NCBI GenBank assembly: GCA_018607135.1
Contig: JABBCA010000105.1
Location: 1 to 64,000 of the forward strand
Length of the DNA: 64,000 nt
From: Opitutales bacterium
Lineage (GTDB): Bacteria; Verrucomicrobiota; Verrucomicrobiia; Opitutales; Coraliomargaritaceae
Direction of reading: 5' to 3'
Numbering within the stretch: position 1 is the stretch's first letter; every line of letters starts with the position of its first letter. Positions 48,413-60,236 of this stretch are shown piece by piece. Under the pieces are notes generated by a model. The model was not told the DNA's origin. It worked only from the letters and a program-made list of their open reading frames with translations, and did no database searches. Made by a program: the position numbers and the translations under genes.

Positions 48413-48811
48413 ATGGAACTGACATCATTCACGGATTATTCGCTTCGCGTTTTAATGTATCTGGCTAAGCATCAGCCAGAGCGTTCGTCGATTGATGAAT
48501 TGGCTGAATTTTATAAAATTTCGAGACACCACCTTGCGAAAATCATTAAACGTCTATCGCAGTTGGGCTATGTGGAGACGATTCGCGGTAAAGGTGGGGG
48601 CGTTTGTCTCGCTTTGGCTCCTGAGCGGATCAACTTGGCTAAAGTGATTCGTGGAACTGAGCCGCACTTTAATTTAGTCGAATGTTTTGCGAAAGAGAGT
48701 GCTGGGAACTGTGTGATTCATGGTAATTGTGCTTTAAAAGGTGTTCTTTGGCGTGCCCAAGGTCACTTTTTTGAACATTTAGAAAAATATACCTTAGCTG
48801 ATGTTGTCTGA
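48413..48811 (+). CDS. nsrR: NsrR-type Rrf2 regulator, probable nitric oxide sensor
   Basis: A 132-residue Rrf2 regulator with strong resemblance to NsrR: MELTSFTDYSLRVLMYLA at the start, HTH with ISRHHLAKIIKRLSQLGYVETIRGKGGGVCL, and YTLADVV at the end. Three Cys (C91, C100, C106) give a C-x8-C-x5-C cluster; E. coli NsrR has C-x4-C-x5-C for its NO-sensitive Fe-S cluster. The start at 48413 matches family N-termini; an ATG 30 bases upstream is possible. It stands directly before a heme-rich operon on the same strand. Confidence 0.88.
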   Translation: MELTSFTDYSLRVLMYLAKHQPERSSIDELAEFYKISRHHLAKIIKRLSQLGYVETIRGKGGGVCLALAPERINLAKVIRGTEPHFNLVECFAKESAGNCVIHGNCALKGVLWRAQGHFFEHLEKYTLADVV

Positions 48812-48877
48812 GTCTGTGCTCATTTTTGAGCTTTGAGCGTGGGTCTTTTCCTTTGTATGAAAGGGCTTGGGGTTAAT

Positions 48878-48892
48878 ATGAATAGTTTTCAT
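48878..48892. promoter_or_regulatory. Candidate operator, ATGAA-5-TTCAT
   Basis: ATGAA and TTCAT form inverted half-sites with a 5-base spacer in the nsrR-redox operon gap. AT-rich inverted sites are typical of NsrR targets, but the half-sites are short. Confidence 0.3.
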
Positions 48893-48911
48893 TTCAGCGC
48901 GGCCAATGATT

Positions 48912-48932
48912 AATGGCTAAATTTAGTCCATT
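48912..48932. promoter_or_regulatory. Candidate operator, CTAAATTTAG palindrome with flanks
   Basis: CTAAATTTAG (48917-48926) is a perfect 10-bp palindrome; AATGG and CCATT extend it to 21 bases with one unpaired T. It lies about 100 bases upstream of the first gene of the redox operon, a reasonable operator position for the adjacent NsrR-type protein. Confidence 0.4.
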
Positions 48933-48965
48933 CTGGCCTGCTTTTTTATAAATGGTATTTCAAAT

Positions 48966-49012
48966 GCTATTTATCGCATAGCTCTCGAATCTTGAGCTCA
49001 CCGATAAATAGC
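48966..49012 (+). promoter_or_regulatory. Long two-part hairpin upstream of the redox operon
   Basis: GCTATTTATCG (48966-48976) pairs with CGATAAATAGC (49002-49012); inside, AGCTC (48980-48984) pairs with GAGCT (48994-48998). A symmetrical 3x3 internal loop separates the two stems and the apex is 9 bases. It ends 16 bases before the ATG of the DUF3365 gene, so it could act as an operator, an mRNA stabiliser or a translational switch. Confidence 0.6.
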
Positions 49013-49028
49013 TAACTCGAATATCAAA

Positions 49029-49625
49029 ATGAAGAAAACAGTCATTGCACTCACATCCGTCGTTGCCGCTATCGCTGCAACTTCGTTCCTTGCCGGTTGC
49101 GGTAAGTCCGAAGTAACCGTGGAACCAGGTCTTCCATTTGCCAAATTCACTGACGCACTCCACATGGTGCTTGATAATGACCGCGCGGTTTACACCAAGA
49201 ACGTGGTTGGTCGTCTCGCGGCGAAGGAAAAAGTTATCAAAGCCAGTGAGCACTGGACTGAAGATAAGGCACTGCCGTTACCAGCGCAAATGTTTCGTAT
49301 GGGCGCGGAGTTGACTGCAAGTAAAGATGCATTCTTTAGCTACTCGCTACAATCGTTATGGCCGATCAATAAGTCCAACGCGGCTGGCCAAACAGAAGTT
49401 GAAAAAGCAGGTCTGCAATTCGTTGCTGATAATGGTGGCACAGCTCCTTACTACAGTGAGGAAGAGCTTGGTGGTGTTAAGTATTTCACCGCGGTTTATG
49501 CTGATGTTGCTGTAGTGCCTGTCTGTGTGACTTGCCATAATGAGCACAAAGATAGTCCAAAGACAGACTTCGAACTTGGTGATGTCATGGGTGCGGTGGT
49601 GATCCGTGTCCCTATGGATTCTTAA
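49029..49625 (+). CDS. Tll0287-like (DUF3365) heme-binding lipoprotein
   Basis: A 198-residue envelope protein. Its signal ends in lipobox LAGC (Cys 24). The DUF3365/Tll0287-like domain, a PAS-type fold binding c-type heme, ends with CVTCH (residues 166-170) followed by NEHKDSPKTDFELGDVMGAVVI. Such domains often act as heme-based gas or redox sensors in signal proteins; here it is free-standing and lipid-anchored, so an electron carrier or NO-binding role is an inference. First gene of the operon. Confidence 0.85.
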   Translation: MKKTVIALTSVVAAIAATSFLAGCGKSEVTVEPGLPFAKFTDALHMVLDNDRAVYTKNVVGRLAAKEKVIKASEHWTEDKALPLPAQMFRMGAELTASKDAFFSYSLQSLWPINKSNAAGQTEVEKAGLQFVADNGGTAPYYSEEELGGVKYFTAVYADVAVVPVCVTCHNEHKDSPKTDFELGDVMGAVVIRVPMDS

Positions 49626-49644
49626 TTTCATACTGTCAGTTGAG

Positions 49645-50067
49645 ATGAAAAATGAACTTGGCATGGGTGGGCGTTTGCCTGCCGCGGTAGCTATCATAGT
49701 CCCTCTACTGCTTGTCGGGTGCGATAAACCTGAGGAGGTTTCTAGTCATTCGCAGCCTGTGCCGAGCTCTGTTTTTGATCCAATGGCCCTGGAAATTATC
49801 GACGCTAATTTAATTAAAGGTCGTGAGATATGGGTGCGCACTTGTGCGCAGTGCCACATACGCGGCCTAGGTGGGGCACCGATTATCGCTGATAAGGCAG
49901 ATTGGGCACCGCGAATTTTACAAGGAAAAGAAGTCCTCTATGACCATGCGATCAATGGTTTCGTTGGGCCGCAACTCAATGAGATGCCAGCAAAAGGCGG
50001 CTTTCTCGATCTTACTGATGAAGAAGTAAAGCTGGCCGTCGATTTTGTCGTCTTCGCTAGCGAATAA
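49645..50067 (+). CDS. Monoheme cytochrome c lipoprotein
   Basis: A 140-residue class I cytochrome c. Signal with lipobox LVGC (Cys 26), heme site CAQCH at residues 67-71, and a likely axial Met in MPAKGGF (Met 114). The start at 49645 gives the signal sequence; an earlier in-frame start overlaps the previous gene. Probably a periplasmic electron carrier for the operon. Confidence 0.9.
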   Translation: MKNELGMGGRLPAAVAIIVPLLLVGCDKPEEVSSHSQPVPSSVFDPMALEIIDANLIKGREIWVRTCAQCHIRGLGGAPIIADKADWAPRILQGKEVLYDHAINGFVGPQLNEMPAKGGFLDLTDEEVKLAVDFVVFASE

Positions 50068-50094
50068 AATAACAACCTAAGCAAGCAACATTAC

Positions 50095-50469
50095 ATGAGC
50101 ACACTATATGAAAAAATCGGCGGAGAGCCCGCCGTTGATGCAGCAGTCGATCTATTTTACGTCAAAGTTTTGGCTGACGACCGCATTAAACATTTCTTTG
50201 AAGGAATTCCAATGGATCGCATGCGCGGCCACCAGAAGAAGTTCCTAACTATGGCATTTAGCGGACCTAACAATTATTCTGGCCGCGGCATGAAGGCCGC
50301 GCACGCAAACCTAGTCGCTAAGTATGGTCTGAATGACACTCACTTTGATGCGGTGATCGAAAACCTCGGTGCTACTTTGGTTGAACTTGGAGTTCCAGAG
50401 GATCTCATCGGTCAAGCCGCTGCGATCGCAGAAAGCACACGCGAGTCTGTTCTAGGACGTGCGGACTAG
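50095..50469 (+). CDS. Group 1 truncated hemoglobin
   Basis: A 124-residue 2-on-2 globin of the TrHbN type: MSTLYEKIGGEPAVDAAVDLFY at the start, DRMRGHQKKFLTMAFSGP in the middle and the proximal His in MKAAHANL (about residue 70). TrHbN proteins oxidise NO to nitrate or shuttle O2/NO. No signal peptide, so cytoplasmic. Its place in an NsrR-linked operon supports a NO detoxification role. Confidence 0.93.
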   Translation: MSTLYEKIGGEPAVDAAVDLFYVKVLADDRIKHFFEGIPMDRMRGHQKKFLTMAFSGPNNYSGRGMKAAHANLVAKYGLNDTHFDAVIENLGATLVELGVPEDLIGQAAAIAESTRESVLGRAD

Positions 50470-50477
50470 TTCGTTTC

Positions 50478-51092
50478 GTGATTTCATTAGTTGAGAGTTT
50501 GAGTCGCAGGCTCGGTTCGATCCTGAGCCGATTACCTGCACTCGTCTCTCTTCTTGTCGTTACTGGATGTGAACGCGCATCGCCACGTGTTTACGATATT
50601 TCCCTGGTAGCTGAGGCACCGTTCGAAGTGAAAACTGCTCCAGTTGAAGCGGGCACCTCTGCATTGTTTGAAGGCTTAGCTTGGGATGTTCCACAGGCTT
50701 GGTCGGATGCGCCCGTCGGGCCGATGCGCTTAGTTGTATACACTGCGGTTGAGGGTGCGGTGGAGCTGAGTGTGAGTCGTTTCCCGGGAGACGTCGGAGG
50801 TGATCTTGCGAATATCAACCGTTGGCGACGACAGCTTGGATTGTCGCCTGTGTTAGATCTGAATAGTGTTGATGGCCTACAAGCTGAGCAAAACGGATCG
50901 ATCATGGCTCAAAGAATCGAACTTTTTACGGATGCTTCCGAGGGATCAAGTGGGATGTATATGCATTGGTTTAACTACCAAGGTTACACATGGTTTTTTA
51001 AGGCGAATGGCACTCGAAAGCCGTTGATCGAGATTCGCTCGGACTATGACTCATGGATACAATCCATAAATGCTTCCGCAGAGGGCGAGTAA
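50478..51092 (+). CDS. Lipoprotein of unknown function
   Basis: A 204-residue protein not recognised. GTG start at 50478, hydrophobic signal ending in lipobox VTGC (Cys 34). The body has LAWDVPQAWSDAP, VELSVSRFPGDVGGDLANINRWRRQLGLSP and WFNYQGYTWFFKANG, resembling small exported proteins often found beside cytochrome assembly genes. There is no heme motif. It lies 8 bases after the hemoglobin gene and 4 before the ResB gene, so it may assist assembly or anchor the complex. Confidence 0.75.
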   Translation: MISLVESLSRRLGSILSRLPALVSLLVVTGCERASPRVYDISLVAEAPFEVKTAPVEAGTSALFEGLAWDVPQAWSDAPVGPMRLVVYTAVEGAVELSVSRFPGDVGGDLANINRWRRQLGLSPVLDLNSVDGLQAEQNGSIMAQRIELFTDASEGSSGMYMHWFNYQGYTWFFKANGTRKPLIEIRSDYDSWIQSINASAEGE

Positions 51093-51096
51093 TTCG

Positions 51097-52221
51097 ATGC
51101 ATGCACTCTTTCTACGTCTTAGCTCGCTTAGGTTTACTGTAGTTTTATTACTACTCTCACTGATGCTGGTCTTTGCTGGCACGCTTGCGCAGGTGGAGCT
51201 TGGCATCTATCGCTCGCAGCAAGTGTATTTCGAAAGCTTCTTCCTGTGGAGTGAGCTCTTCGGACGGACTTTACCTGTGCTGCCCGCTGGCTACACGATT
51301 GGAACCTTGCTGTTGGTTAACTTAGTCTCGGCTTTTATTGTTCGTTTTAAAGTGAAGGGAAAGCACGCTGGGTTGTTATGCGTGCACTCTGGATTGATTT
51401 TACTCCTGCTTGGCGAAGTATTAACTGACGTGCTTTCGGTTGAGTCGCAATTGCGTTTGGTTGAGGGGGAGTCTAAAGATTATTCAGAAAGTATTTTTAA
51501 CTATGAACTCGCAGTCGCGCGTGCGATCGATTCGGGGCAGCGCGTCGTTGCTTATGATAGTCAGCAACTTGTGGAGGGCGCTGAGTTGTCGCATGCGGAG
51601 ATGCCGCTACAGCTTGAGGTATTAAAATTTTGGCCCAATTCAATGCTGCGCGCACAATCGACAGCCTCGCCCACGCAGGCAGATTCTGGGATAGGGGCAG
51701 CCGTGTCGGTGGTTGCGCTGCCGCTTACGGGCAAACTTGATGAGCGTAATGTGCCCACTGCTCTGGTGCATTGTCGCGTGGGAGGTGAGGACCTTGGGAC
51801 TTATATACTCTCTGGGCATTTAGGTGAAGCAGATCGTATTGAACTAGCCAATGGGATGTATGCAGAGTTGAGCTTGCGTCCTCAGCGATACTACATGGCG
51901 AGCACGGTTCATCTCGATGACTTTGTGCGCGAGGTGTATCCAGGCACTAATAAGCCGAGTCATTTTGAAAGTAAACTCACTTTGTCAGGGGGAGAGCTGC
52001 CCGCAGACCGGAAGGTAGCGATCTATATGAATCATCCTCTGCGTTTTGACGGTAAGACCTTTTATCAAGCGAGTTTTGCTGGTGAGGAAACGATTTCCAT
52101 TCTGCAGGTTGTGCAGAATCCGACATGGCTGCTGCCATACGTTTCGTGCCTGTTAATTACTATTGGGTTGTGTTGGCAGTCGCTTTCTCGTCTTAAGATT
52201 CGAAAGGGGAGCGCTGCGTGA
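51097..52221 (+). CDS. resB: ResB/Ccs1-like cytochrome c biogenesis protein
   Basis: System II cytochrome c assembly protein that, with CcsA, carries heme across the membrane and attaches it to CXXCH. The 374-residue product has three N-terminal helices (LRFTVVLLLLSLMLVFAGTLAQ; TIGTLLLVNLVSAFIV; HAGLLCVHSGLILLLLGEVL), a large periplasmic domain and a last helix near the C-terminus with the MNHPLRFDGKTFYQASF segment just before it. The start at 51097 is preferred. It overlaps ccsA by 4 bases. Confidence 0.87.
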   Translation: MHALFLRLSSLRFTVVLLLLSLMLVFAGTLAQVELGIYRSQQVYFESFFLWSELFGRTLPVLPAGYTIGTLLLVNLVSAFIVRFKVKGKHAGLLCVHSGLILLLLGEVLTDVLSVESQLRLVEGESKDYSESIFNYELAVARAIDSGQRVVAYDSQQLVEGAELSHAEMPLQLEVLKFWPNSMLRAQSTASPTQADSGIGAAVSVVALPLTGKLDERNVPTALVHCRVGGEDLGTYILSGHLGEADRIELANGMYAELSLRPQRYYMASTVHLDDFVREVYPGTNKPSHFESKLTLSGGELPADRKVAIYMNHPLRFDGKTFYQASFAGEETISILQVVQNPTWLLPYVSCLLITIGLCWQSLSRLKIRKGSAA

Positions 52222-54005
52222 AACCATATTTGAAGTATCTCACGCCGTTAATCCTGCTATTATTGGTGTGGAGCTCAGTGCGTCAGCCGCATCCGATTGG
52301 AGCCTTTAATTATGAAGCCTTCGGTCGGCTCCCAGTGCTCTTGGACGGACGTATTCAGCCAATGGATACGGTTGCTCGAAATTCACTGCTTATCTTATCA
52401 TCTAAAAGTTCGCCTCGCGTGGAAGTTGCTGGAGAGCCAGTTAAGCTCGTGCCAGCCGAATGGCTGGCGACGATTCTATTGAACCCTGAGGTAGCGAATC
52501 AATGGGCTATGATTCGTATTTATAATGAAGAGCTGAAAGATCAACTTGGGCTGCCTTTAGAGGTGAAGGATTTTTCGTTTAATGAGCTCGAGCCGTTCTT
52601 TGGCGAGATTGAGCTGCAGGCTACTGCCGCGAGGCAAATTGAAGGTCCGCGGCGTGATGCATTTCAACGCGCTAGCGTGAAGCTCTATGATAAGCTGATC
52701 CTGCACCTGCGTATGAGTCAGTCGATTTGGCTTTATGATCAAGACAGTATAGCTGGGGAGTGGGGCACTTTTACGAAACACATTGCAAGCCCCGCTGAAA
52801 AGCCGGGGCTGAGTGATCTGCTTCGTGAGCGTTATGGTCGTATGGCGGAGATGTCGTTGCTGCGCGTGATCCCTGAATCAGATGAGGTGTTCTTGACGAT
52901 CGGTCAGGCTCAGCTCGCTGGATTGGATAAAGGACAAGCGCATCCACTGGTGGCTATCTATTTGAACATTGCCGAGGCTTATCAAGCAGGGCAGGTGGAT
53001 CGATTTAATGTGTTGTTGGATCAAGTTGGTTTGGCATTTGAAAGCTATGCGCCTTCTTCTCGTGTGGAGGTCGAGCAAGCTTACAATGCGTTCAATCCAT
53101 TGTTGCGTGCGATGGTTGCCTACTTGTTGGGCGGCATTCTGGTGTGCGTTGCTTGGGTTCGCTGGCCCGAACGCCTCTTGCCTGCTGCAAGCTGGGCAAT
53201 CGGTATAGGATTGGTCTTTCATACCGTAGGTTTGCTGCTGAGGATGTATCTCCAAGGCAGGCCACCCGTTACGAACTTGTATTCGTCGGCTGTCTTTGTG
53301 GGGTGGGGCGCGACCTTATTTGGTCTGATTATAGAACGACGTAACAAGCAAGGCCTGGGTGCTTTGACGGCAGCGGCGATTGGGTTTTCGACTTTAGTTG
53401 TGGCGCAAGGATTGGCTGCGAGCGGTGATACGCTTGAACAAATGCAGGCCGTTCTAGATTCGAACTTTTGGTTAGCAACGCATGTGGTGACGATCACGCT
53501 TGGTTACTCCGCAACCTTCCTTGCTGGCTTCATTGGGATCGCCTACGTGTTGCGATTATGCGCGAATTCATTAGATAAGCAGTTCGTGCGACAGACTGCG
53601 ACACTTGCCTTTGGTATTTCCTTATTTGCGCTTTTATTGAGCTTCGTCGGCACCGTGCTCGGTGGCATCTGGGCCGATCAGTCATGGGGGCGATTCTGGG
53701 GATGGGATCCGAAGGAGAATGGCGCCGTGATGATTGTGATTTGGAATGCCGTTATCTTGCACGCGAAGTTATCGGGCATGTTGCGCGATCATGGTATCTT
53801 ACTTGCTGTGATCTTTGGTAATGTGATCACCGCGTTTTCATGGTTTGGAGTGAATATGTTAGGCATCGGCCTGCACTCGTATGGTTTTATGGATCAAGCG
53901 TTCTTTTGGTTAATCCTTTTTTGTGGGAGTCAGCTTTTAATCATCCTGTTGGGGGCGGCACGTGGTGCTTTCGTCAGTCGTTCGAAGGGAGCTGCACATG
54001 GTTAA
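52218..54005 (+). CDS. ccsA: CcsA/ResC-type cytochrome c heme lyase subunit
   Basis: Heme-handling protein of System II. The 595-residue product has one N-terminal helix, a soluble periplasmic region to about residue 290, then about eight helices including the WWD motif (IWADQSWGRFWGWDPKENGA) and flanking His residues. GTG start at 52218 overlapping the resB stop. Its location in the operon suggests dedicated maturation of the multiheme cytochrome. Ends 8 bases into the next gene. Confidence 0.92.
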   Translation: MKPYLKYLTPLILLLLVWSSVRQPHPIGAFNYEAFGRLPVLLDGRIQPMDTVARNSLLILSSKSSPRVEVAGEPVKLVPAEWLATILLNPEVANQWAMIRIYNEELKDQLGLPLEVKDFSFNELEPFFGEIELQATAARQIEGPRRDAFQRASVKLYDKLILHLRMSQSIWLYDQDSIAGEWGTFTKHIASPAEKPGLSDLLRERYGRMAEMSLLRVIPESDEVFLTIGQAQLAGLDKGQAHPLVAIYLNIAEAYQAGQVDRFNVLLDQVGLAFESYAPSSRVEVEQAYNAFNPLLRAMVAYLLGGILVCVAWVRWPERLLPAASWAIGIGLVFHTVGLLLRMYLQGRPPVTNLYSSAVFVGWGATLFGLIIERRNKQGLGALTAAAIGFSTLVVAQGLAASGDTLEQMQAVLDSNFWLATHVVTITLGYSATFLAGFIGIAYVLRLCANSLDKQFVRQTATLAFGISLFALLLSFVGTVLGGIWADQSWGRFWGWDPKENGAVMIVIWNAVILHAKLSGMLRDHGILLAVIFGNVITAFSWFGVNMLGIGLHSYGFMDQAFFWLILFCGSQLLIILLGAARGAFVSRSKGAAHG

Positions 54006-55977
54006 GGCGATGAAGCAGAAGTCGAAGCTTGGCCCAATAGTCATTATAGGAAACGGAATGGTGAGTTGGCGCTTGTGCCGTAGCTTAGTGGAGCTGGGTG
54101 TGCATGAGAGGCGTTCAATTCTAGTTTTTGGTGATGAAATACAACCCGCTTATGATCGGGTGAATCTAACCAAGTATTTTGATCTCGAGAAGTCGGATGA
54201 TTTACTGCTCTCAAATGCAGAGTGGTATGCGTCACACGATATCGCTTTGCATATAGGGCGAAAGATCATCCGTTTAGACCCACAGCAAAAGCTCGTGGTC
54301 GATGATCAAGGGCAAGAGTATGCGTATGCCGATTGCGTATTGGCTACCGGGAGTCGTGCATTTGTTCCGCCGATCGAAGGGGCTGCAAATGAGAATGTCT
54401 TTGTTTATCGGACGATTGAAGATATCGAGGCGATCAAAGCAGCTGCGCAAGGTGCACGCCGCGGTCTGGTGATTGGTGGTGGTTTGCTTGGCTTAGAGGC
54501 TGCGAATGTTTTAAAAGACCTTGGCCTAGAGACTTGTGTTGTGCAGGCGGCGAGTGGCTTGATGAGTCGTCAGCTCAACGAGGATGGATCTGGCTATTTG
54601 TTGCGTGAGGTCGCGGCGCTTGGGATGAGTGTGCGCCTGCGGACGAATACTCAACGTATTCAAAAAACGGCGACAAAGCTCGAAGTTGAGTTTAATCATG
54701 GAGATCCTCTTGAGGTTGATCTGGTGATTATCGCTGCTGGCATTCGACCTCGAGATGAACTGGCTGAGGAGGCCGGACTTCAAACCGCAGCGCGAGGAGG
54801 CTTTATTGTTGATGATCATCTGGAAACTAAGGTTGGGCATGTTTATGCGATTGGCGAGTGCGCTTCGCATCGAGGCGAAGTCTATGGCTTAGTGGCTCCT
54901 GGTTATGAGATGGCTGATTGTTTGGCGCAGCGCCTAGCGAGTAAAAAGAATGCACGTTATCGCGGTAGTGATTCCTCATGCCGCTTGAAACTTTTGGGAG
55001 TCGAAGTCGGGACTTTTGGTGATTATCTACAAGAAGGAGTATATCATGTGCATCGCGGAGCGCGCAGTTACCGTTCTTTGGTTTTTCGTCGGTCCAAATT
55101 AATTGGTGCGACCGTTATTGGCGATTGGAGTGAAATCGCTGAAATCGAACGGGCCGTCAAAGAGGGCCGAACATTTAGTAAAGGAATGCGCCGTCATTTC
55201 GAGCGCACTGGAGATTTATTTGGTGAGTCGATGATCACCAGCGTGATTCATTGGCCAGATACGGCGATTGTTTGTAACTGCACGCGCACGAGTTGTGGCA
55301 CATTGCGCGAAGCGGTGGGTGCGGGTTGCTTAACAGTCGCTGCGTTGACGGAGCGCACTGGGGCTGGGGGCGTGTGCGGTTCCTGTATGCCTCAGTTGGC
55401 TGACTTTGTGGGTGAAGATGTAGGCCAAGTGCTGGATGTGGCGCGACCCAAGGGAGGGATGCTGCTCATGATTTCTGCGATCATTGCGCTGATAGTTTGC
55501 TTGGGCTTTATTTTGGGGCCACCTGTGCCTGCTGCGAAAACTGTGCAGAGCACCTATTACGAGTTCACGCAGATTTGGCAGGATTCGTTCACAAAAAAAG
55601 TTACTGGCTATACGATTGCCGGCTTGTCGCTCTTTGCAATTTTACTCTCTGCGCGCAAGCGCTTTCGATGGCTGAACTTCGGTAATTATGGTTTTTGGCG
55701 GGCGGCGCATTCGTGGCTGGGGGTGACTACACTGCTTGGTATATTCTTTCACACAGGGCTGAATTTCGGTGAAAATTTAAATTTCTGGCTGCTCATTTGT
55801 TTTCTAGGGTTGAACCTAGCGGGTGGTCTTGCCGCAATTGCTGTGGCTGCTGAGAAGCGCTTTTCAGGTCCTGTCGGAGCACGTCTTCGAGGTGTGGCGA
55901 CGAAGGCACATATTGTATTCTTTCTTCCTTATCCGGTCTTACTCGGATTTCACATTGCTAAGGTCTATCTCTACTAA
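53998..55977 (+). CDS. NirB-like FAD oxidoreductase fused to Bfd-type [2Fe-2S] and bis-heme b membrane domains
   Basis: A 659-residue fusion. Residues 10-400 are a NirB-type pyridine-nucleotide:FAD oxidoreductase (IVIIGNGMVSWRLC, LATGSRAFVPP, LVIGGGLLGLEAANVL, YAIGECASHRGEVYGL). Residues 420-465 are a Bfd-like cluster site with Cys 426, 428, 460 and 463. The siroheme reductase part of NirB is absent; instead residues 490-656 form about five helices with His 571/585 and His 638/652, each pair 14 apart in a helix, as in bis-heme b ferric-reductase-like proteins. This suggests NAD(P)H-FAD-[2Fe-2S]-heme b transfer to the periplasm. Start ATG at 53998. Confidence 0.85.
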   Translation: MVKAMKQKSKLGPIVIIGNGMVSWRLCRSLVELGVHERRSILVFGDEIQPAYDRVNLTKYFDLEKSDDLLLSNAEWYASHDIALHIGRKIIRLDPQQKLVVDDQGQEYAYADCVLATGSRAFVPPIEGAANENVFVYRTIEDIEAIKAAAQGARRGLVIGGGLLGLEAANVLKDLGLETCVVQAASGLMSRQLNEDGSGYLLREVAALGMSVRLRTNTQRIQKTATKLEVEFNHGDPLEVDLVIIAAGIRPRDELAEEAGLQTAARGGFIVDDHLETKVGHVYAIGECASHRGEVYGLVAPGYEMADCLAQRLASKKNARYRGSDSSCRLKLLGVEVGTFGDYLQEGVYHVHRGARSYRSLVFRRSKLIGATVIGDWSEIAEIERAVKEGRTFSKGMRRHFERTGDLFGESMITSVIHWPDTAIVCNCTRTSCGTLREAVGAGCLTVAALTERTGAGGVCGSCMPQLADFVGEDVGQVLDVARPKGGMLLMISAIIALIVCLGFILGPPVPAAKTVQSTYYEFTQIWQDSFTKKVTGYTIAGLSLFAILLSARKRFRWLNFGNYGFWRAAHSWLGVTTLLGIFFHTGLNFGENLNFWLLICFLGLNLAGGLAAIAVAAEKRFSGPVGARLRGVATKAHIVFFLPYPVLLGFHIAKVYLY

Positions 55978-57323
55978 TGTTTAAGGCAATAAAGGCAAAT
56001 CTCTTCTGGCTCATACTTGTGGGCGCATTGGCAGCTTATCTCAGCTTTGCACTCATTGGTGGTGCTGAACATGAGTTCATGCCTGGGCAAACTACGCATG
56101 GGCATCATCAAATTGAAATGGCTTGCTCGGTGTGTCATACCACTGGCATGGGCGTGAAGCAGGACTCATGTAATGAATGTCACCAGGAGGAGCTCACTCG
56201 TGTCGATGATTCACACCCGGTGATTAAATTCAAAGATCCGCGCAATGCATCTCGCTTGGAACAATTGGACGCACGTTACTGCATTACTTGTCACCGAGAG
56301 CATCAACCTGAAATTACCAATTCAATGGGTGTGACTTTGCCTGAGGATTATTGTTATTATTGTCACCAAGAGATCGGCGACGAGCGACCTTCGCATAAGG
56401 ACTTTGCATTCGATTCATGCGCGACTGCTGGCTGTCATAATTTTCATGATAATAGTGCGCTCTACGAACGTTTCTTGGCGAGCCATTTGGACGAGCCCGA
56501 CTTCAAGGAAGTCGCAAAGCAGCGCCTGCGAAGCTATTACGACAACCCCGATCATACAAAGGGTGATGCACTGGAGCACGCTGATGCGGATATGCCCGAC
56601 GACGCGCAGCACACGCATCGTATATTACATGATTGGTCGACTACCGCACATGCTGCTGTGGGTGTGAACTGCACCGATTGTCATAATGTGAAAGACACGG
56701 AGACAGGTGCGATTACATGGCAAGATAGGCCTGGCTACACGTCCTGCCAAGAGTGCCATAAGCACGAAACTAAAGGCTTCCTTGAGGGCAAACACGGGAT
56801 GCGTTTGGCTCAAGGTTTGAGCCCGATGACGCCAAGTATGGCGAAAATACCGATGCGCGCTGAAGCAGCGCATAGTGAGTTGACCTGTGCCTCCTGCCAC
56901 GATAGCCACCGCTTTAATACCAAGACCGCTGCAGTCGATGCCTGCTTGCAGTGCCACAATGATGATCACTCAACCGCCTACAAGGAGTCGCCACACTTTA
57001 AGCTCTTTATCGATGCGCAGCGTGGTTTGAAATCGTCCGACGAGGCGGTGAGCTGTGCGACTTGCCACATGCCACGTGTTGAGAAGACTGAGTTTGGCGA
57101 GACGATCACAATTGTAGATCATAATCAAAACAACAGTCTGCGCCCGAATGATAAGATGATCCGAAGCTCATGTATCCAGTGTCACGGACTTCAGTTTACA
57201 CTGAATGCTTTGGCGGATCGCGATTTGATCGACCGAAATTTTAAGGGGAAGCCGAGTGTCTTTGTCGAGAGTCTAGAGCTCGCTCGCGAAGAAAAGGAAC
57301 GCACCGAGGCTGCCAAGAAATGA
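55977..57323 (+). CDS. Membrane-anchored 11-heme cytochrome c (HAO/NrfA-superfamily-like)
   Basis: A 448-residue cytochrome with an uncleaved-looking N-terminal helix (LFWLILVGALAAYLSFALIGG). Ten CXXCH sites start at residues 50, 65, 102, 126, 232, 257, 304, 323, 360 and 399, plus CX4CH at 148-154. The C-terminal half has CATCHMPR, VDHNQN, KMIRSSCIQCHG and ALADRDLI, recalling octaheme hydroxylamine-oxidoreductase and nitrite-reductase relatives. No CXXCK site of classic NrfA is seen. The gene overlaps the fusion oxidoreductase by one base (TAATG). Likely terminal reductase; substrate unproven (nitrite, NO or hydroxylamine). Confidence 0.88.
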   Translation: MFKAIKANLFWLILVGALAAYLSFALIGGAEHEFMPGQTTHGHHQIEMACSVCHTTGMGVKQDSCNECHQEELTRVDDSHPVIKFKDPRNASRLEQLDARYCITCHREHQPEITNSMGVTLPEDYCYYCHQEIGDERPSHKDFAFDSCATAGCHNFHDNSALYERFLASHLDEPDFKEVAKQRLRSYYDNPDHTKGDALEHADADMPDDAQHTHRILHDWSTTAHAAVGVNCTDCHNVKDTETGAITWQDRPGYTSCQECHKHETKGFLEGKHGMRLAQGLSPMTPSMAKIPMRAEAAHSELTCASCHDSHRFNTKTAAVDACLQCHNDDHSTAYKESPHFKLFIDAQRGLKSSDEAVSCATCHMPRVEKTEFGETITIVDHNQNNSLRPNDKMIRSSCIQCHGLQFTLNALADRDLIDRNFKGKPSVFVESLELAREEKERTEAAKK

Positions 57324-60047: not shown

Positions 60048-60053
60048 TCAACC

Positions 60054-60236
60054 AACCCTGCAGTGTTCGATATTAACTGGAGTGTCTGTCCTTTACTCTT
60101 TCGCAATCGGGAGCTTGCCCTCTTCGGTGGTTGTCCAGCCGTCAATCGGAAGACATAAACCGCGGAGAAAGCACCCACCTTAGACGCAAAAGGCTAAGAA
60201 CTCCCCTTTAAACGGCACAGGTGGGGCTTTTTTGCG
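60054..60236 (+). ncRNA. ssrS: 6S RNA
   Basis: 6S RNA mimics an open promoter and sequesters sigma-70 RNA polymerase. Recognition is by segments in the right order: CCTGCAGTGTTCG at the 5' side of the closing stem; CCGTCAATCGGAAGAC then ATAAACCGCGG on the 3' side of the apical stem (E. coli: CCGTCCGAGAAGCCTTAAAACTGCG); CACCTTAGAC...AAAAGGCTAAG (E. coli: CACCTTGAACCAAGGGTTCAAGG); and ACGGCACAGGTGGGG closing. The length of about 180 bases is typical and a T6 run ends it. No covariance model was run. Confidence 0.8.
60174..60236 (+). terminator. 3' stem and T-run of the 6S RNA locus
   Basis: CCCACCT pairs with AGGTGGG across the 3' part of the 6S RNA, and GGGGC is followed by T6 at 60228-60233. 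The second arm would also be used in the RNA's own closing stem, so the two folds compete. Transcription probably stops here before the convergent proC. Confidence 0.5.

Follow-up and report, generated by a model that had tools for sequence, protein, structure and literature searches.

Introduction

In Bradyrhizobium japonicum, the assimilatory nitrate reductase NasC makes nitric oxide (NO), which is removed by the globin Bjgb together with Flp, a flavoprotein that supplies electrons from NAD(P)H (PMC4724949). The narK-bjgb-flp-nasC cluster has an ATP-binding cassette (ABC) nitrate transporter as well as NarK, and is under NasS-NasT control (PMC4724949). This system is the nearest functional precedent for the locus described here, which lies in a 64,000-nucleotide (nt) stretch of an Opitutales bacterium of the Verrucomicrobiota (the window; GenBank assembly GCA_018607135.1, contig JABBCA010000105.1) and whose core encodes a flavoprotein fused to a membrane domain, an 11-heme cytochrome c, a Tll0287-like lipoprotein and, usually, a globin. 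Both systems join a globin to an NAD(P)H flavoprotein among genes for nitrate assimilation (PMC4724949), whereas Flp has not been described with a transmembrane heme-b domain and the Bradyrhizobium system has no 11-heme or sCache_heme partner. We propose, with about even confidence, that the core is a nitrosative-stress module accompanying nitrate assimilation, in which an NAD(P)H-driven conduit to the periplasm acts on NO or nitrite.

The core proteins resemble members of several described families. Like NirB, the large subunit of assimilatory nitrite reductase, the fusion begins with an FAD/NAD(P)H region and a Bfd domain, but a predicted two-heme-b membrane domain replaces the siroheme/4Fe-4S half. 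Hemes 6-11 of the 11-heme protein share fold and heme order with the HAO/octaheme cytochrome c family, octaheme nitrite reductase and NrfA; unlike the HAO family, the protein is without the heme 4 motif and possesses an extra five-heme N-terminal region and a membrane anchor. The Tll0287-like protein, as a stand-alone Cache-fold lipoprotein with one c heme, is comparable to the Tll0287/sCache_heme proteins, for whose stand-alone forms a preprint gives redox roles and mentions no operons (PMC12889525), whereas here the gene is fixed beside that of the 11-heme protein. An 11-heme cytochrome is also found in the undecaheme Uet complex of Tenderiales (PMC10734462), the comparison with UetJ being by description only; Uet, unlike the module, has a porin and extracellular cytochromes (PMC10734462). 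No description of the module was found in the literature searched, which mostly excluded subscription journals, nor a name for it among the NCBIfam models scanned.

Results

A scan of one genome per species yielded 143 relatives of the 11-heme protein, from which 80 loci were kept; their 11-heme proteins are 44-67% identical over nearly the full length. Eight further loci bring the larger set to 88. The 80 named relatives span at least nine phyla, and their taxa comprise Verrucomicrobiota, Lentisphaera, alpha-, beta- and gamma-Proteobacteria, Planctomycetes, Nitrospirota, Poribacteria, Acidobacteria, Myxococcales, Dadabacteria and Binatia. The fusion gene lies directly upstream of the 11-heme gene on the same strand, with a gap of -3 to 208 nt, in 78/78 loci holding both, and a Tll0287-like gene is on the same strand in 80/80 named loci and neighbours the 11-heme gene in 88/88 of the larger set. 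Therefore, the arrangement is not due to chance. The Tll0287-like gene is downstream in 76 of the 80 and upstream in four relatives that share the order of the window. A globin gene is present at 68/80 loci (72/88 in the larger set); in most loci other than that of the window it encodes a single-domain globin in place of a truncated hemoglobin.

Because these loci had been collected via the 11-heme gene, the reverse test was made with a profile of the fusion membrane domain. Among 388 Verrucomicrobiota genomes, the 11-heme profile matches nine; the fusion profile matches the same nine at E<=1e-50, adjoining the 11-heme gene, and eight others weakly (E>=4e-12). The two proteins are thus obligate partners in that sample. 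The 19 control loci used for neighbourhood counts are short and were found through NirB-like matches, and so constitute a weak control.

The conserved core consists of the fusion, the 11-heme protein and the Tll0287-like protein, usually with a globin. Membership was assigned from the locus counts, by which NsrR, ResB, CcsA and a lipoprotein with no Pfam match are local additions: NsrR is near 8/88 loci, and the other three are near 3/88 (L069, L080 and L084, in Planctomycetes), where they occur together. The first-pass annotation had treated the nine genes of the window as a self-contained operon, a description that these counts contradict; the check that it proposed, co-occurrence of the fusion and 11-heme genes beside nsrR in relatives, bears out the pairing of the two genes, with nsrR rarely nearby. 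A monoheme cytochrome c gene accompanies 36/88 loci. ResB and CcsA were considered as core members and ruled out on their count; the host genome has three CcsA-type genes, two of them in addition to that of the window, and the nearest relatives, in Cerasicoccus (L024 and L025), have no ResB/CcsA at the locus. In L069, L080 and L084 the lipoprotein-ResB-CcsA cassette is near the module as it is in the window, and may have been exchanged between phyla. A search for plasmid-borne copies of the module found none. Ten of the 88 loci (L042, L044, L059, L072, L073, L078, L085, L095, L096 and L098) include an Alginate_exp-type porin gene, often between a nitrate ABC transporter and the fusion.

The fusion matches the NirB model TIGR02374 over positions 1-465 only, which cover the FAD/NAD(P)H and Bfd regions, and no siroheme/4Fe-4S NIR_SIR domain (PF01077/PF03460) was found in it with Pfam. 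In an AlphaFold2 model with a predicted local distance difference test score (pLDDT) of 90.5, the head compares with NAD(P)H ferredoxin reductases at Z 44, and the remainder consists of five membrane helices. One helix carries H571 and H585 and another H638 and H652, all four being invariant in 46/46 sequences. The pairs H571/H638 and H585/H652, with a 13-residue spacing on two helices, correspond to the pattern of ferric-reductase/NOX-like di-heme b domains, and the four transmembrane histidines are predicted from the sequence to bind two b hemes. By our reading of the positive-inside rule, H571/H638 lie toward the cytoplasm and H585/H652 toward the periplasm; with histidines facing both sides, the domain would therefore provide a two-heme path across the membrane. 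The heme-b portion recognized in the first-pass annotation is thus kept as a heme-b membrane domain and corrected to two b hemes with a weak DUF4405 likeness: among 24 members, one matches PF01794 (7e-4) and three match DUF4405. The membrane domain has no sequence relative in the PDB, and the structure search with the whole fusion, in which that fold was not searched alone, gave no match to it, an absence that carries no weight.

The 11-heme protein comprises an N-terminal anchor, an N-terminal 5-heme region and a C-terminal 6-heme HAO-fold domain. The count of eleven hemes made in the first-pass annotation is confirmed, with ten CXXCH motifs and one CX4CH (CATAGCH); all 11 are invariant in a 65-sequence alignment, and all end in His in 65/65. 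The CATAGCH motif occupies residues 148-154 (window 56418-56438), with its Cys and His invariant in 65/65 relatives, and this CX4CH site is kept although most relatives are without ResB/CcsA beside the module. Attachment of c heme places c-type cytochromes on the periplasmic side of the membrane, and the 11-heme protein is accordingly assigned to the periplasm because its hemes are of the c type.

In the structure model of the protein, residues 165-448 are of good quality and most of 30-160 is poorly modelled; the five-heme region has a pLDDT of about 45-75, and its only match, a weak one, is to OmcA. Foldseek alone gave no match below E 0.001 for the 11-heme protein. Residues 202-424 have the HAO fold, aligning with HAO 4n4j over 192 residues (VIA-align Z 7.3, which is middling; root-mean-square deviation 4.1), and the same structure is retrieved at 4e-7 with a profile built from residues 285-427. 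Aligned with hhalign, the C-terminal profile matches HAO residues 119-325 end to end (Prob 98.7, E 2e-15), with hemes 6, 7 and 8-11 corresponding to HAO hemes 2, 3 and 5-8. The heme 6-7 pattern alone is not diagnostic, as it resembles pairs in NrfA and other cytochromes. The CXXCK catalytic motif of NrfA and octaheme nitrite reductase was not found in the 11-heme protein. Some NrfA proteins use CXXCH, and the absence of CXXCK alone does not exclude nitrite reduction.

The association of the module is with nitrate assimilation, not dissimilation. NasA is encoded in 49/388 Verrucomicrobiota genomes overall versus 9/9 module carriers (Fisher p 4e-9 by genome and 2e-5 by genus, relatedness being partly allowed for). 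A NasA match (E<=1e-60) is present in 49/50 named module genomes, although some few of the matches, among the weakest, resemble other molybdoenzymes. Genes for a nitrate transporter, NasA, NarK, NasT or nitrite reductase lie within 36/88 loci, and L027 holds the single run nrtB-nrtC-nirB-nirD-nasA-fusion-11heme-Tll0287-globin. The Bjgb/Flp hallmark, in which a globin and a flavoprotein using NAD(P)H share a nitrate-assimilation cluster, was thus found in relatives; the nrtB-nrtC-nrtD-nirA-nasA cluster of the host, with NirA and NasA assigned by profile match, is on a contig other than that of the window. Replacement of the assimilatory nitrite reductase by the module was rejected, as NIR_SIR proteins are encoded in 49/50 module genomes and the host has NirA; with NirA or NirB types in nearly all module genomes, the module is therefore a companion of assimilation rather than its nitrite reductase. 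Between nirA and nasA in the host cluster (L104:10969-12522) is a gene for a DmsB-like ferredoxin fused to a membrane domain, followed by one for a flavoprotein of the sulfite-reductase type, which is an unusual arrangement for supplying NasA with electrons.

The nitrogen-oxide context seen in the first-pass annotation was borne out for NsrR, the globins and sCache_heme, as was its three-Cys cluster in NsrR: C91, C100 and C106 align with the cluster cysteines of Streptomyces NsrR (ScNsrR, 5n07), the best PDB match, and D8 with its Asp ligand. NsrR scores 121.7 bits, below the cut-off of 182 for the NCBIfam NsrR equivalog. An inverted repeat between nsrR and the first structural gene has an ATTT-N-AAAT core and pairs at 9/11 arm positions, with a shuffle p of 0.036 in the window that is weak alone; L024, L025, L026 and L081 have repeats at the matching position, about 32-45 nt upstream. 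The truncated hemoglobin is closest to cyanoglobin (PDB 1s69, 8e-41) and also matches Chlamydomonas THB1 (1e-26). In seven other loci (L064, L077, L082, L087, L093, L095 and L098) a truncated hemoglobin gene is followed by one for a 2Fe-2S/FAD/NAD reductase resembling a dedicated reductase of an NO dioxygenase. Tll0287-like domains carry a c heme, and their signalling forms bind NO tightly (PMC12889525). The absence of nrfA and norB from the locus extends to the whole host genome, in which neither NrfA nor NorB was found; the three heme-copper subunits of the host look like those of one aa3-type and two cbb3-type oxidases rather than NorB.

Discussion

Both the conduit across the membrane and its association with nitrate assimilation are well supported, and a role in handling NO or nitrite is likely. 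In the mechanism that we propose, electrons from NAD(P)H would enter the fusion at FAD and pass to its [2Fe-2S] cluster, and from there, via two stacked b hemes, cross the inner membrane and reach the 11-heme cytochrome, which is anchored in the membrane and faces the periplasm. The latter would deliver them to NO, nitrite or both, either at one of its own hemes or via the partner with sCache_heme or a single heme. Inside the cell, NO would be removed by the cytoplasmic globin, which may be reduced by the same flavin/[2Fe-2S] head, and the operon of the window organism is probably kept repressed by NsrR as long as NO is absent. The first-pass annotation had wired NAD(P)H through the fusion to a periplasmic multiheme reductase: the cytoplasmic head, the two-heme-b domain and the obligate inner-membrane-anchored periplasmic 11-heme partner are retained, and the identification of that partner as a reductase is not.

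Several observations weigh against a nitrosative-stress role. Apart from the rarity of NsrR near the module, stand-alone sCache_heme proteins bind NO weakly and are redox-like (PMC12889525), and genuine NrfA is encoded in 7/50 module genomes, a count on which the module was also rejected as an NrfA accessory. The remaining points concern the 11-heme protein itself. The active site of HAO is heme 4 (PMC8840924), and its CAHCH motif aligns to a stretch without CXXCH, where none of the 65 sequences has a conserved heme motif. Beyond the 11 heme-motif histidines, 11 further histidines are invariant in these sequences, and bis-His ligation is therefore possible for every heme. With the HAO catalytic motif absent and this bis-His capacity, the sequence points to no active site in the 11-heme protein; together, the two features argue for, short of proof, a putative electron-transfer role. 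They also count against the possibility, which we regard as rather unlikely, that a new periplasmic reductase of NO, nitrite or hydroxylamine is to be seen in the 11-heme protein itself, with an active site that differs from HAO heme 4: no CXXCH counterpart of that heme occurs in any of the 65 sequences, and the extra histidines match the hemes in number. In favour of such an enzyme are its kinship in fold and sequence with a group that includes several nitrite-reducing proteins (HAO, octaheme nitrite reductase and NrfA), the alignment of H331 within the segment that holds an Asp-His pair in HAO, and the attached NADH-type donor. That the whole constitutes an enzyme system new to description, in which NAD(P)H reduces periplasmic NO or nitrite via a NirB-derived transmembrane flavocytochrome b and an 11-heme protein whose active site is without precedent in the HAO superfamily, is doubtful.

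The combination of FAD and Bfd is of the NirB/NasB donor type, and in Bradyrhizobium NasC and Bjgb alike receive electrons from Flp (PMC4724949). The fusion could thus be a membrane-anchored relative of Flp/NasB that mainly feeds cytoplasmic NasA and the globin, with its b hemes and the 11-heme protein swapping electrons with the respiratory chain or a periplasmic cytochrome c and so balancing the flow. NasA in all nine module genomes and the nrtBC-nirB-nirD-nasA-fusion-11heme run of L027 would fit this arrangement; 40/49 NasA-positive Verrucomicrobiota genomes are, however, without the module, the host NasA cluster has electron-transfer genes of its own, and the obligatory periplasmic 11-heme protein is left unexplained, so that we consider it improbable. 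We judge it very improbable that the module serves extracellular electron transfer with metals or electrodes in the manner of the undecaheme Uet complex. The eleven hemes of its cytochrome, a similarity to DmsE-like decaheme profiles in 65/65 members and the origin of some loci in metagenome-assembled genomes of iron oxidisers or biocathodes would suit such a conduit, but the protein has an inner-membrane anchor, no conserved outer-membrane porin-cytochrome genes adjoin the module (only the Alginate_exp-type porin noted above), and the module, which heterotrophs including Alcanivorax and Spongiibacter commonly carry, is tied to nitrate assimilation genes.

Bacteria of many phyla, from marine, soil and engineered systems, thus carry an obligate multi-heme module alongside nitrate assimilation. 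Should the module act on NO or nitrite, it would supply a protective arm that has been missing from the picture of nitrate use; it would further exemplify a nitrite-reductase flavin head recast as a transmembrane electron donor, and an HAO-like enzyme turned into a wire or a new reductase.

Gene organization of the locus

The nine genes named in the first-pass annotation, all on the + strand at 48413-57323, correspond to open reading frames at those coordinates, and Pfam backs every name. Genes 2-9 overlap or are at most 28 nt apart, and nsrR is 217 nt upstream of gene 2.

Table 1. Features of the module locus, in positions of the window
Feature	Position	Strand	Support or location
NsrR-type Rrf2 repressor, local regulator	48413-48811 (alternative start 48383)	+	PF02082 4e-35
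Candidate NsrR operator, inverted repeat AAATGGTATTTCAAATGCTATTT	48950-48972	.	~57 nt upstream of first structural gene
Tll0287-like (DUF3365, sCache_heme) stand-alone lipoprotein, one c heme (CVTCH), core	49029-49625	+	PF11845 2e-16
Monoheme cytochrome c lipoprotein (CAQCH), frequent accessory	49645-50067	+	PF13442 3e-12
Group I truncated hemoglobin, cyanoglobin/THB1-like	50095-50469	+	PF01152 3e-16
Lipoprotein, no Pfam match, accessory, accompanies ResB-CcsA	50478-51092	+	
ResB-like cytochrome c maturation protein, accessory	51070-52221	+	PF05140 8e-15
CcsA/CcsB-like cytochrome c maturation protein, accessory	52218-54005	+	PF01578 1e-23
Fusion of NirB-type FAD/NAD(P)H, Bfd [2Fe-2S] and 5-helix membrane domain, core	53998-55977	+	Pyr_redox_2 4e-52, Fer2_BFD 5e-9
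11-heme cytochrome c, N-terminal membrane anchor, core	55977-57323	+	10 CXXCH + CATAGCH

Outside the locus, the window also contains a 6S RNA gene (Rfam RF00013) at 60052-60231.

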